Positions 40,955-47,445 of a DNA stretch of 64,000 bases are shown piece by piece (within the stretch, counting starts at the first letter, position 1; the number at the start of each line of letters is the position of its first letter). Location of the stretch: positions 1 to 64,000 of the forward strand of contig JAFXCE010000124.1 in the NCBI GenBank assembly GCA_017521565.1. Reading direction: 5' to 3'. Source of the stretch: Clostridia bacterium (GTDB lineage: Bacteria; Bacillota; Clostridia; Christensenellales; Aristaeellaceae). A program made the translations under genes and the position numbers. The notes beneath the pieces were generated by a model. That model worked only from the letters and a program-made list of their open reading frames with translations. It was not told where the DNA came from and did not search any database.

Positions 40955-41164
40955 GATGAACCGCATAGACAGCTGGGCGCTGCCCGGCTTTTTGTATACG
41001 GTGAAACATCGTATGCGACTGAATACAGTATAGTTGTTCTGCGGATGAAAGTCAATTTGCATGCGGGGATGCGTGCAGATTCGTTGACAGATTCTGTCTG
41101 GCATGTTAATCTGTTGTCATACTGAATGCTGGCAGGCATTCGCAAAAGAAGGAGGAAGTCCCTA

Positions 41165-43210
41165 ATGAAAAAGAGCATCATTGCCCTTGTTCTCGCGCTG
41201 TGCATGATTATGCCTGCGTGCGGCATGGCGGCTGCTTACACCCCCGGCACCTATGAAGCCGAGGCAACCGGCATGATGGGCCCGGTGAAGGTGACCGTCA
41301 CTGTGAGCGAGACTGAAATCACCGACATCATCGCCGACGTGTCCGGTGAAACCGAGAGCATCGCAGCGCCGGTTCCGGAAGCGCTGAAGTCCGCGATCCT
41401 CGCTGCGCAGAGCGCCGAGGTTGACGGCGTGGCGGGCGCGACCATGACCAGCAACGCCATCAAGGCCGCCGTGCAGAAGTGCCTTGACGAGGCTGCTGGC
41501 GCCACTGCGTGGGACGGCACCTATACCGCCGGTACCTATACCGCTGCTGCCAAGGGCCGCAACGGCGATGTGACCGTTGAGGTTACCTTCACCGAGAACG
41601 CCATCGCGGATGTGAAGGTTGTCTCTCATGCGGAAAACCTGGGCCTTGGCTACGGCGTGCCGAATGCGCCGCTTGATACCTTCCCGGGCAAGATCGTGGA
41701 GAATCAGTCTCTGGCCATTGACGTTGTGACCAACGCGACTGTCTCCGGCAACGCCGTGATCGCTGCTGTGGCCGATGCCGTTGCGCAGGCTGGCGGCGAC
41801 GCCGAGGTGCTCAAGGCGAAGGCTGTTCCGGCCGCGGCTGTCGATACCGTTTATGAGGTGGACGTCGTGGTTGTCGGCGCGGGCGCTGCAGGCCTGTCCG
41901 CAGCCATCGCTGCGCAGGAAGCGGGCGCGAACGTGCTGCTGCTTGAAAAGGGCGGCCTCTCCGGCGGTTCCACCGTGCGCTCCGGCGGCAAGATCCTTGC
42001 GGCGGGCACCCCGTGGCAGGAGAAGCAGGGCTACACTGACAACGCAGACATGATGTATGAGTATCTGATGAGCTTTGACCGCGACGACATCATGAGCGAG
42101 GAGCTCGTGCGTGCATTCTGCGACAACTCTGCGGAGAACCTGCAGTGGCTCGAGGATCGCGGCGTTATGGTGCAGGACGTTGAGTATATTCACAGCTCCA
42201 TCACCCCGTGGCGCGTGCATAACACCATGGGCGGCGGCGGCCAGACCAGCGGACACGGCGGCCAGTTCACCGCGCCGCTGACCAACCTCTATGAAGGCAA
42301 GGGCGGCAAGACCCTGTACAACTGCCGCGCGGAAGAGCTGATCACCAACGAAGCCGGCGCTGTCGTGGGTGTGAAGGCCACCATGAAAGACGGCACGAAG
42401 GTAGAGGTGAACGCCAAGGCGGTTATCCTCGCTACCGGCGGCTATGCCCAGAATCCGGAAATGCTCGCCAAGTATGCGGACTTCCTGCCCTACAGCCCGT
42501 ATGGTTCCGTGCCGATGACCAACACCGGCGACGGCCTGACCATGGCGGTTGCTGTCGGTGCGAAGAACTTCGACGCTCCGGGCCTGCAGCTGGTGTACGT
42601 CAGCTATGACTGCTACTGCGGCATCAATGAGGAGTCCGGCCTGATCGTCTCTGAGGACGGCCTGCGCGTGGTGGACGAGTACACCTATCAGTCCCATGTT
42701 GCTCAGGCTCTGGCGGATGCGGACAGCACCTGCGGCTTCTATATCGCGGCGAAGAAGGACGGCTATGCCGTTGAGCCGTATCCGATGATCCAGTGGGGCG
42801 TGACGATGGAGCATGTGCCGCATGCGGCCACCATCGGCGAGCTTGCCGCGCTCATCGGCGTGGACGCGGCTGCCCTTGAGGCGACTGTTGCCCGCTACAA
42901 CGAGCTGTGCGCCAAGGGCGTGGACGAGGACTTTAACAAGCCCGCTCAGTACATGATTCCGGTCGAGGGCGACGAGTACTACGCCTTCCGCATGACGCCG
43001 GGCACCTCCGTGACCTTCGGCGGTCTTGAGATCGACACCGGCGCGCATGTGCTGGATACCAACAACCAGCCGATCCCGGGCCTGTATGCTGCGGGTGAGG
43101 TGGCGTTTACCGGCCTGTTTGATGCAGAGTATCCGTGCTGCGGCATGGCGATCGGCTCTGCGGTCTATTATGGCCGCGTGGCTGCGCTCAACGCTGTTGC
43201 AGGCAAGTAA
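41165..43210 (+). CDS. Secreted flavoprotein reductase with two FMN-binding domains
   Basis: A 681-residue exported protein: signal peptide (cleaved near AAAYT, residue 22-25), FMN-binding domain 1 (about 27-108, DGVAGATMTS with probable flavin-accepting Thr93), FMN-binding domain 2 (about 122-208, DVVTNATVSG with Thr192), then an FAD-dependent fumarate-reductase-like domain (about 230-680, VVVVGAGAAGLSAAIAAQEAG, LATGGYAQNPEM and GLYAAGEV). This is the layout of extracellular reductases of urocanate, fumarate or similar acceptors in anaerobes, with covalent FMN added by ApbE. The electron donor and acceptor are not evident; ApbE is not in the window. AAGGAGG precedes the ATG at 41165. Confidence 0.9.
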   Translation: MKKSIIALVLALCMIMPACGMAAAYTPGTYEAEATGMMGPVKVTVTVSETEITDIIADVSGETESIAAPVPEALKSAILAAQSAEVDGVAGATMTSNAIKAAVQKCLDEAAGATAWDGTYTAGTYTAAAKGRNGDVTVEVTFTENAIADVKVVSHAENLGLGYGVPNAPLDTFPGKIVENQSLAIDVVTNATVSGNAVIAAVADAVAQAGGDAEVLKAKAVPAAAVDTVYEVDVVVVGAGAAGLSAAIAAQEAGANVLLLEKGGLSGGSTVRSGGKILAAGTPWQEKQGYTDNADMMYEYLMSFDRDDIMSEELVRAFCDNSAENLQWLEDRGVMVQDVEYIHSSITPWRVHNTMGGGGQTSGHGGQFTAPLTNLYEGKGGKTLYNCRAEELITNEAGAVVGVKATMKDGTKVEVNAKAVILATGGYAQNPEMLAKYADFLPYSPYGSVPMTNTGDGLTMAVAVGAKNFDAPGLQLVYVSYDCYCGINEESGLIVSEDGLRVVDEYTYQSHVAQALADADSTCGFYIAAKKDGYAVEPYPMIQWGVTMEHVPHAATIGELAALIGVDAAALEATVARYNELCAKGVDEDFNKPAQYMIPVEGDEYYAFRMTPGTSVTFGGLEIDTGAHVLDTNNQPIPGLYAAGEVAFTGLFDAEYPCCGMAIGSAVYYGRVAALNAVAGK

Positions 43211-44095: not shown

Positions 44096-46225
44096 ATGGA
44101 TCATCTGTATTATATGGATTACGATTTTGAGGAATGGGAAGGATTTGAGCGGGCAACCTGGTGCCGCGAAATCAATGTCCGCAGCTTCCTTCAGCACAAT
44201 CATACGCCGTATGACGGCGATGAGAGCTTCCTGACCGAGCCGACACAGGATACGCTGGATCTGTGGGCGCAGGTGATGGAACTGACGAAAGAGGAGATTG
44301 CCAGGGGCGGCGTTCTGGATATGGATACCGATGTGGTGTCCACCATCACCTCGCATGGCCCGGGTTATCTGAACAAGAGCAAGGAGAAGATTGTCGGCCT
44401 GCAGACCGATAAGCCCTTCAAGCGCGCGTTCATGCCCTATGGCGGCATCCGCATGGCGGAGAAGGCCTGCAAGGACAACGGCTACACCGTCGATCCGAAG
44501 ATGAGCGAGTTCTTCTCTACCCACCGCAAGACGCACAACGCCGGCGTGTTCGACGTATATACTCCGGAAATGCGCGCCTGCCGCTCCAGCCATATCATCA
44601 CCGGCCTCCCGGATGCTTATGGCCGCGGCCGCATCATCGGCGACTATCGCCGCGTGGCGCTCTATGGCGTGGATTGCCTGATTGAGGATAAGCTCGAGCA
44701 GAAGGAAGAGACCCGCTCTGCGATGTATTCCAACGTCATCCGCCAGCGCGAGGAGATCTCCGAGCAGATCCGTGCGCTGCAGGAGCTCAAGAAGATGGCG
44801 GCAAGCTATGGCTACGACATCTCCCGCCCGGCGAAGGACGTGAAGGAGGCCATCCAGTGGCTTTACTTCGGTTATCTCGGTGCGATCAAGGAACAGAACG
44901 GCGCGGCGATGTCTCTGGGCCGCACCTCCACGTTCCTGGATATCTATGCTGAGCGCGACCTGAAGAAGGGCCTTTACACCGAGCAGGAAATTCAGGAGAT
45001 GGTCGACCACTTCATCATGAAGCTGCGCATGGTCAAGTTCGCCCGCACGCCGGAATACAACCAGCTCTTCTCCGGTGATCCGCAGTGGGTGACCGAGTCC
45101 ATCGGCGGCGTGGCGATTGACGGCCGTCATCTGGTTTCCAAGATGAGCTACCGCTACCTGCATACCCTCAAAAACCTCGGTCCGAGCCCGGAACCGAACC
45201 TGACGGTTCTGTGGAGCGTGCATCTGCCGCTGCCCTTCAAGCGCTACTGCGCGAAGGTGTCCATCGAGTCCTCCTCCGTGCAGTATGAAAACGACGACAT
45301 GATGCGCTTCACGCACGGCGATGACTATGCCATTGCCTGCTGCGTGTCCTCCATGCGTCTGGGTCTGGAGATGCAGTTCTTTGGCGCGCGTGCGAATCTG
45401 GCTAAGTGCTTGCTCTACGCCATCAACGGCGGCGTGGACGAGATCAGCCACAAGCAGGTCGGCCCGAAGTTTACGCCAATTACAGCGGATTACCTCAATT
45501 ATGACGAGGTTATGGACAAGTTCGACGCGATGATGCGCTGGCTGGCGGAGGTGTATGTCAATACCCTCAACATCATCCACTATATGCATGATAAGTATTG
45601 CTACGAGCGCCTGCAGATGGCCCTGCATGACAAGAATGTGACCCGCTGGTTTGCAACCGGCATTGCAGGTCTTTCCGTCGTGGCGGATTCCCTCTCGGCG
45701 ATCAAGTATGCCAAGGTGAAGGTCATCCGCGACGAGACCGGCCTGGCGGTGGATTACGAAGTCGAAGGCGACTTCCCGAAGTACGGCAATGATGACGACC
45801 GCGTGGACAACATCGCTCGCGGCATCGTGCATCGCTTCATGGAACACATCCGCAAGAACCACACCTATCGCGATTCTATCCCGACGACCTCCATCCTGAC
45901 GATTACCTCCAACGTTGTCTACGGTAAGGCGACCGGCTCCACGCCGGACGGCCGCAAGAAGGGCGAGGCCTTTGCCCCGGGCGCAAACCCGATGCATCGC
46001 CGCGATACGCATGGTGCGGTCGCGTCGCTGGCTTCTGTTGCGAAGCTCCCGTTCAAGGATGCGAAGGATGGCATTTCCAACACCTTCTCCATCATCCCCG
46101 GCGCGCTGGGCAAGGAGGATCAGATCTTCTGCGGCGATCTCGATGTGGATATCGACTGCGGAAACGGCGGCTGCTTCAGCCCGACGCTCTTTGAGGGCCT
46201 CGACGCAGACGCGAACGAAGTGTAA
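44096..46225 (+). CDS. pflB: Pyruvate formate-lyase, main body without glycyl-radical domain
   Basis: A 709-residue formate C-acetyltransferase body. It has the PFL barrel with the adjacent catalytic cysteines Cys415-Cys416 in IACCVSSM, the [19 protein letters not shown] segment (split about residues 316-335) and the late [15 protein letters not shown]. It stops at TAA 46223-46225, just where a normal PFL (about 750-760 residues) would continue into its radical-bearing C-terminal domain. That domain is encoded by the next gene, in the same frame. PFL turns pyruvate and CoA into acetyl-CoA and formate in the cytosol under anoxia. AGGGAG precedes the ATG; two tandem promoters lie upstream. Confidence 0.92.
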
Positions 46226-46240
46226 GAAAGGAGTATCACC

Positions 46241-46483
46241 ATGACGGCTACGAACAATCAGATCGATAATCTGGTGTCCCTGCTGGATGGCTATGTCAGC
46301 AAGGGAGGCCATCACCTCAACGTCAATGTGTTTTCTAAAGAGACCCTGCTGGATGCGCAGGCGCACCCGGAGAAGTATCCGCAGCTGACCATCCGCGTCA
46401 GCGGCTACGCGGTCAACTTCATCAAGCTGACCAAGGAGCAGCAGGACGAGGTCATCTCCCGCACCTTCCACGACAAGATCTGA
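46241..46483 (+). CDS. Separate glycyl-radical domain of pyruvate formate-lyase
   Basis: An 80-residue protein equal to the C-terminal domain of [23 protein letters not shown], then [17 protein letters not shown] with the radical Gly55 in RVSGYAV, and a normal end (TFHDKI). It begins 15 nt after the stop of the main body with its own AAAGGAG 7 nt before the ATG, and is in frame with it, so a single TAA separates the two. It presumably docks in the main body to rebuild the enzyme, as the spare domain GrcA/YfiD does in Escherichia coli. GrcA repairs damaged PFL; here the domain seems to be the only copy at the locus. Confidence 0.92.
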
Positions 46484-46695: not shown

Positions 46696-47445
46696 ATGGA
46701 CGGATATATTCACTCGATTGAGAGCTTCGGCACGGTGGACGGCCCGGGCGTGCGCCTGGTGGTCTTCTGCCAGGGCTGCCCGATGCGCTGTCAGTACTGC
46801 CATAACCCCGATACGTGGGAGATGGGCAAGGGAACAAGGATGTCCGCTGAGGAGATCATGCGCCTGTATGAGCGCAACAAGGCGTTCTATTCCCGGGGCG
46901 GCATCACGGTGACCGGCGGCGAGCCGCTTCTGCAGCCCGACTTCCTGTTGGAGCTTTTTGCTCTGGCAAAGGCGCGCGGCGTCCATACCTGCATCGACAC
47001 CTCCGGCGCAACATACCGCGAGGGCCAGTCGCCATATAATGAAAAGCTGGATAGACTTATGGAGATGACCGATCTGGTGATGCTGGATATTAAGCACATC
47101 GATGATGCGGCCCACAGGGAGCTGACCGGTATGCCCAATGGAGGCGTTCTGGCCTTTGCGAAATATCTGGAGCAGAGGAATGTGCCGCTCTGGGTGCGCC
47201 ATGTTGTTGTGCCCGGCATCACGGATGAAGAAGCGCAGCTTGAGCGTCTCGGGCGATTTATCGGCAGCCTCAAGAACCTCAAGGCGCTCGATGTTCTGCC
47301 GTATCACACGATGGGAACGGTTAAGTATCAGCAGATGGGGATACCCTATCCGCTGGAGGGCGTGGAGCCTATGTCCAAGGCAGGCGCGGAGCTGGCGAGA
47401 AAGACGATTATCGCCGGAATACGAGCGGCGCGCGGGAAAAACTGA
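46696..47445 (+). CDS. pflA: Pyruvate formate-lyase activating enzyme
   Basis: A 249-residue radical SAM enzyme. CQGCPMRCQYCHNPDTW contains the CX3CX2C cluster motif (Cys28, Cys32, Cys35); VTGGEPLLQPDF (about residue 72) is the SAM-binding GGE. It abstracts hydrogen from the glycine of PFL, here residing on the separate 80-residue protein. Length is normal. AGAGAGAAACGG before the ATG at 46696 is a moderate site; in-frame starts further upstream fall in the repeat. A terminator follows. Confidence 0.95.
   Translation: MDGYIHSIESFGTVDGPGVRLVVFCQGCPMRCQYCHNPDTWEMGKGTRMSAEEIMRLYERNKAFYSRGGITVTGGEPLLQPDFLLELFALAKARGVHTCIDTSGATYREGQSPYNEKLDRLMEMTDLVMLDIKHIDDAAHRELTGMPNGGVLAFAKYLEQRNVPLWVRHVVVPGITDEEAQLERLGRFIGSLKNLKALDVLPYHTMGTVKYQQMGIPYPLEGVEPMSKAGAELARKTIIAGIRAARGKN

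Follow-up and report, generated by a model that had tools for sequence, protein, structure and literature searches.

A pyruvate formate-lyase split before its radical glycine in Clostridia, with a recurrent cysteine element at the break

Introduction

In gut fermenters, pyruvate formate-lyase (PFL) is one of the main ways of turning pyruvate into formate and acetyl-CoA. The enzyme is destroyed by oxygen, which cuts its chain at the radical glycine. A described parallel to the system treated here is GrcA (YfiD), a stand-alone glycyl-radical domain that works with a PFL body; according to one section of PMC12338860, the E. coli protein is able to act in vivo for a PFL that lacks a radical of its own. 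Here, we describe a PFL locus in a 64,000-nucleotide stretch of DNA (hereafter the window; contig JAFXCE010000124.1 of the Clostridia bacterium assembly GCA_017521565.1, family Aristaeellaceae), where the catalytic body and the glycyl-radical domain are encoded by two genes, and we compare it with the corresponding loci of related genomes.

Open-licence PMC papers, which are weak evidence on this point, yielded no account of a natural split PFL, and the family name GrcA3, to which the small gene belongs, was not found in them either. PMC9403272, in the part that deals with PflB, treats the protein as a single-enzyme step and has no GrcA; the relevant part of PMC13252398 is likewise silent on split PFLs.

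Results

The window encodes PFL as a body and a separate radical subunit

The radical glycine of this PFL lies on the small open reading frame (ORF) and not on the body chain, which stops before it (Table 1). A first-pass annotation of the window had reported an in-frame TAA (46223-46225), an AAAGGAG, an ATG at 46241 that starts the small ORF and Gly55 in RVSGYAV, and all of these are present in the sequence, the codon of Gly55 occupying 46403-46405. The small ORF is in frame with the body, with 15 bases between them. Since the body covers positions 1-666 of TIGR01255 and the small protein 663-744, both chains together span one whole PFL model; in alignment with E. coli PFL, the body extends up to residue 680 and the small chain begins at 683. 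The annotation had also placed the break in the linker before the radical domain and described a body with no such domain of its own. The split does precede the glycine, which the body lacks, but it falls inside the Pfam Gly_radical model (PF01228, 106 positions), of which positions 1-50 remain on the body and 49-106 are on the small chain.

The active-site Cys pair corresponds to body residues 415/416 (45338-45343), and C415 and C416 are invariant in a five-row alignment of the body with four fused relatives. Beyond ...SIIPGALG the body continues for 37 residues. It is a split relative of TIGR01255 rather than an ordinary member, with a score above the cut-off and no glycine on the same chain, and its predicted activity is the cleavage of pyruvate to formate and acetyl-CoA. 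The first-pass annotation proposed a search for another full-length PFL, and no second PFL of any kind was found in the window's assembly, a draft of 160 contigs that is 84.86% complete. The only other Gly_radical match in this genome outside the PFL locus (G000, contig C131:32888-33187, L002) belongs to a 794-aa frame of a non-PFL glycyl radical enzyme with a VRVWGW motif at its end.

Table 1. Features of the PFL locus in the window
Feature	Position	Strand	Evidence and remarks
PFL catalytic body	44096..46225	+	709 aa; TIGR01255 1105.6 bits vs 994.2 cut-off, positions 1-666/744
Body C-terminal tail K673-V709	46112..46222	+	Cys motif at Cys688 and Cys693
Body stop TAA	46223..46225	+	Sequence reading; TAA or TGA in 8 relatives
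Ribosome-binding site AAAGGAG of small gene	46227..46233	+	Direct reading; GAAAGGAG or AGAGGAG in 8 relatives
Radical subunit, GrcA3 type, 80 aa	46241..46483	+	NF038360 166.7 bits vs 158 cut-off; PF01228 positions 49-106
PflA, PFL-activating enzyme, radical SAM	46696..47445	+	TIGR02493 302.3 bits vs 231.75 cut-off

Upstream of the PFL locus, the window encodes a flavocytochrome c-like FAD protein (41126-43210, + strand; TIGR01813 249 bits, below the cut-off), whose N-terminal FMN-binding repeat is our own reading only.

The split form is widespread in related genomes

Among 28 same-genus genomes, seven have a close body (86-97% identity), and all of these proved split when inspected; seven others have a fused PFL that is more distant (59-63% identity), and the remaining 14 gave no PFL-type match. 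Named genomes scanned with the small protein contained at least 582 relatives, and the best 80 loci were kept. A split body stands upstream in 78 of them and a fused one in none; the other two have no body in view, one at a contig end (L090) and one an orphan (L091). The first-pass annotation had argued for a settled two-gene form, to be abandoned if relatives were all fused or carried a sense codon at the break. The close relatives are split, with TAA or TGA stops, and the pair of a shortened body and a small radical-domain gene recurs across a large clade, so this claim is strongly supported. Some of the 80 loci come from records not labelled as metagenome-assembled genomes (MAGs), namely Claveliimonas bilis c-25 (a complete chromosome), Ruminococcus sp. 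YE71, Blautia sp. An81 and Lachnospiraceae MD329.

The frequency of the split form depends on the sample. Within the order, a GrcA3-type match (E<=0.001) is present in 192 of 396 genomes, and the best 30 loci comprise 15 split and 15 fused ones, some of the fused running off an end. Within the class, matches at E<=1e-28 occur in 153 of 291 genomes, at least 18 of which have a stand-alone small ORF, all within the 30 loci inspected. An even draw over the phylum gave 2 of 398 genomes at a strict E<=1e-43, one being the window's own. The split form is therefore widespread in gut and rumen Clostridia and rare in the phylum draw. It also appears in named records from Gastranaerophilales, Spirochaetales and Atopobiaceae, although such bins can be contaminated. 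Separately, 1538 of 50,697 records in a phage collection contain a GrcA-like match, 44 of them covering at least 80% of the query; these are mainly enterobacterial phages, and the top faecal contigs among the matches listed may be bacterial.

The gene pair was characterized in 116 split loci (115 distinct, L128 and L148 being identical). The chosen start of the small ORF is ATG in all 116, and the small chains measure 76-83 aa. A Shine-Dalgarno score of at least 4 was found at 115 of the 116 starts and at 261 of 3354 control ATGs inside bodies, a comparison that is favoured because the starts were picked as the best-scoring candidates. The small ORF lies in each of the three frames relative to the body (39/44/33 loci), body stops are TAA in 80, TGA in 27 and TAG in nine, and the gap between the two genes ranges from -17 to 868 bases (L153 excluded). 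The ratio of nonsynonymous to synonymous substitution rates (dN/dS) is low for both chains in the window's clade, at 0.095 (body) and 0.107 (small chain). The activase gene stands downstream of the small gene in 74 loci, upstream in three, between the two in one and on the other strand in one; it was not seen in 37, of which 19 have 3 kb of room or less.

Several individual loci depart from this pattern. L089:4130-5240 (Eubacterium sp. MAG) has the order body, activase, radical subunit, and neither a Cys tail nor a third ORF (see below) was seen there. L153 (G639) is a split-type locus whose body ORF is broken by a stop, through error or decay. G019, one of 23 split genomes searched for further PFLs, has a second, partial split copy. 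The orphan L091:5001-5240 (Gastranaerophilales MAG) is a second radical-subunit gene on a contig other than that of the PFL body; its neighbours, read by eye, look like a ferritin and a Crp/Fnr-type regulator, which suggests a stress-linked spare copy. An extra small gene with no body nearby is thus found in this genome and probably also in that of L121.

Split bodies form one large clade and part of a second

A tree of 148 bodies was built on 455 columns with the break region excluded (159 rows were eligible; nine short ones and two without the cut motif were dropped). Clade A unites 94 split bodies, including the window's, with an SH-aLRT support of 99 and no fused member. Clade B contains 18 bodies, 14 split and four fused. 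Constraining A and B together was not rejected (p-AU 0.723, on 69 of the 148 rows) and gave a likelihood above that of the free tree; therefore, one ancient split with later re-fusion inside B is possible, and two origins would be the alternative. The four fused PFLs nested among split ones in clade B (L049, L051, L052 and L053; family f14) are possible natural re-fusions, which, if true, would show how reversible the split is.

A cysteine element occurs on the body tail or on a third small protein

Gap lengths between body and small gene form two size groups; in clade A, a third small ORF (63-110 aa) is found in most of the long ones. Its first 30 residues resemble the start of the radical domain, both when a profile is compared with the window's small protein (probability 93.4, E 2.6e-7) and with the clade-A small-protein profile (probability 72.9, E 3.9e-6), and the third-ORF profile independently finds the same stretch of fused and split PFLs. 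The third protein is without the glycyl loop and ends in a Cys motif; the residues D, H, C, C and P are shared without exception by the 37 members compared. A similar Cys motif is carried by the body tail of the window. The first-pass annotation mentioned neither; the tail escaped it, and the third ORF is visible in relatives only.

Tail and third ORF exclude each other in clade A. Classification covered 98 loci (97 distinct, given the identity of L128 and L148), with L153 not counted for tails on account of the stop in its body ORF. Among the 97, 56 have a tail with at least two Cys, 38 have a third ORF (a script found 36, L131 was recognised by eye, and in L145 it follows the small gene), three have neither (L089, L155 and L128/L148) and none has both. 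The 74 named loci alone give 42, 30 and two. Under independence of the two, a complete lack of overlap among the 98 would have a hypergeometric probability of 5e-23, a figure that takes no account of relatedness. The tree shows about 10 changes between the states, several of the forks concerned being weakly supported, and parsimony places the third ORF at the base of A. In clade B, 16 of 16 classified loci have neither element, one showing a single Cys. The order of genes is not fixed, as the third ORF of L145:1882 and on (G587) follows the radical subunit. Eight of the 291 genomes in the class sample match the third family strongly (E<1e-19), and all eight belong to the 18 split ones (Fisher p 4e-11).

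With a profile built from the C-terminal part of the third protein, 36 of the 56 Cys tails score higher than any of 2800 shuffled tails, and the other 20 are not recognised; the C..P[TN] part is absent in 14 of the 56. The tail has a dN/dS of 0.23-0.29 (0.23 in the window's clade), and the third ORF 0.61 on near-saturated pairs, which alone is weak evidence of constraint. In AlphaFold models, the third protein folds into a helix and two strands with a loose C-terminal end (mean pLDDT 71.8), and the tail of the window's body is disordered (pLDDT <50 over model residues 675-714).

Database comparison of 37 third-ORF members placed none in a curated family. In NCBIfam, 19 match GrcA3 (best E 4e-6, far below the 158-bit cut-off) and other families reach E 0.028 at best; Pfam has nothing at E<=0.001 (best 0.007). 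Among PDB sequences, the best match of the third family has E 0.087, and the sole match of the window's tail is a ferredoxin at E 0.94. No source searched (literature, Pfam, NCBIfam, PDB) contained the Cys element or the third family, and the cysteine element, as tail or third protein, appears undescribed.

Two candidates were set aside. L113 at first suggested that body and third ORF had naturally fused; its protein, however, has a run of X and an off-frame stretch, and it was excluded. Transcription terminators in the long gaps were rejected, since a scan for hairpins plus T-runs was positive in a minority of loci with no shared position.

Discussion

Judging from sequence comparison, we consider it very probable that the locus encodes an obligate two-chain PFL, with the small subunit as the only radical carrier found and a Cys element that may dock or guard it. 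The body would hold the substrate site and the thiyl-forming Cys pair and be unable to hold a glycyl radical. The small subunit would be translated from its own ribosome-binding site and supply what the body lacks, namely a helix, a barrel strand, the glycyl loop and the C-terminal helix, and PflA would install the radical on its Gly55. The small chain presumably docks where the C-terminus of a fused PFL lies, and the Cys tail, or elsewhere a glycine-less mimic of the radical domain, may help to capture, position or guard the detachable subunit. More tentatively, only the cheap 80-residue chain would be replaced after cleavage by oxygen; such repair by subunit exchange is plausible. The built-in repair or control device conjectured by the first-pass annotation would fit the orphan small gene of L091 and the in vivo action of E. 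coli GrcA in PMC12338860.

Some points weigh against this interpretation. The fold was modelled from a read-through chain, and the alignment behind it included fused PFLs, which largely built canonical docking into the result. The engineered E. coli tPFL 1-695 showed poor YfiD binding and lowered radical installation, according to the relevant part of PMC8683613, and therefore a split is not automatically benign. That construct ends about 15 residues beyond the natural break in E. coli numbering; given that the body aligns to residue 680 and the small chain from 683, the natural break is earlier, and the helix preceding the barrel strand belongs to the small chain. Finally, one of the 23 split genomes, Claveliimonas bilis, has a fused PFL alongside the split one.

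A bolder version of the two-chain arrangement, which we find doubtful but worth stating, is that the Cys-x(n)-Cys-x-x-P-[TN] peptide is a control element and the mimic a placeholder, with the radical chain as a swappable cartridge. The mimic, with its helix and barrel strand, would occupy the place of the radical subunit while the latter is absent or damaged, and the Cys peptide would sense oxygen or metal and gate the loading of a fresh chain. We know of no glycyl radical enzyme with a swappable radical cartridge and a placeholder. A half-of-sites model, with one radical subunit and one mimic per dimer, was dropped as the principal explanation because a portion of PMC12338860 argues against half-site reactivity in E. 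coli.

Tail and third ORF might instead be functionless, decayed leftovers of an ancestral radical domain. The homology of the third ORF's first 30 or so residues to that domain fits such an origin, as do its dN/dS of 0.61, the lack of both elements in three distinct clade-A loci and throughout the classified clade B, and the tails without C..P[TN]. Decay would hardly keep five residues invariant in 37 of 37 proteins, however, nor leave the motif on either tail or third ORF in 94 of 97 distinct clade-A loci, never on both and through about 10 switches, and the tail itself has a dN/dS of 0.23-0.29; we regard this explanation as unlikely.

Less likely still, the small gene could be a spare part as in E. 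coli, rescuing another full-length PFL while the truncated body is a decaying by-product. The NCBI name of the family, autonomous glycyl radical cofactor GrcA3, speaks for it, and so do the orphan copy in the genome of L091 and the two forms in Claveliimonas bilis; against it, no fused PFL was found at E<=1e-40 in 22 of the 23 split genomes (many of them drafts), and the dN/dS of the body, about 0.1, shows strong purifying selection. Readthrough or recoding of the TAA, yielding some fused PFL with the small-ORF start incidental, would suit the in-frame arrangement and 15-base gap of the window, but it is highly improbable in view of the three frames, mixed stops, variable gaps and ribosome-binding sites of the 116 loci and of the activase gene between body and small gene in L089. 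An assembly error or a private nonsense mutation, a suspicion raised by the draft state of the assembly, is hardly credible and is refuted as a general explanation by relatives, as the same break stands in seven same-genus genomes and in non-MAG records including a complete chromosome, with varied stops and frames; moreover, the small gene has a ribosome-binding site to itself, and dN/dS is low in body and subunit alike.

A natural PFL with its radical on a detachable 80-residue chain would allow the spare-part idea to be tested in its cleanest form and may suit the engineering of oxygen-exposed fermentation. Split PFLs would probably be discarded as fragments in surveys that require a single chain to carry both the Cys pair and the glycine. 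The either-or of Cys tail and third mimic points to a function in glycyl radical enzymes that is absent from Pfam and NCBIfam.

Comparison with known systems

Relative to E. coli PflB (TIGR01255), the read-through chain of the window is 64% identical over 745 aligned residues and keeps the Cys pair, and the small subunit corresponds to the C-terminal radical domain of PflB; unlike PflB, the chain is broken at about E. coli residue 680, and the body has the extra 37-residue Cys tail. The small protein scores above the curated cut-off of GrcA3 (NF038360, NCBIfam; model length 78). The GrcA3 name implies an autonomous cofactor, whereas the protein of the window stands beside a body without its own radical glycine and is for this reason best read as a subunit and not a spare. 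Two PDB entries named 'Formate acetyltransferase' resemble split bodies: 38la (687 aa) ends ...SLGKED like clade-B bodies, and 38lb (739 aa) aligns past the break like clade-A bodies, its last 43 residues lying outside the comparison. Their sequences suggest that both are solved split PFL bodies; no small or third chain of such kind was found among PDB sequences. With the small gene already named GrcA3 and these two entries, the split is known in part.

The parallel with GrcA/YfiD (TIGR04365, 6owr) drawn by the first-pass annotation is right in kind: each is a stand-alone glycyl-radical domain that goes with a PFL body (93.1 bits). GrcA, however, serves as a spare, and the small protein here is the only radical carrier found for its PFL. 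The small protein also falls below the 170-bit cut-off and is without the disordered residues 1-60 of YfiD: the match starts at residue 21 of 80 in the small protein against 67 of 126, and the N-terminal region of about 60 residues that the family calls for is missing. In addition, no intact partner PFL was found for it in the assembly, about 85% complete.

Small Cys-bearing proteins encoded with a glycyl radical enzyme are otherwise represented by the beta and gamma subunits of BSS and the small subunit of HPAD. The HPAD small subunit binds [4Fe-4S] clusters. For BSS, the accessory subunits bind [4Fe-4S] clusters as well, as stated in a section of PMC12590467. The locus described here differs from both in that just two cysteines are invariant and the radical itself is carried on a small chain.
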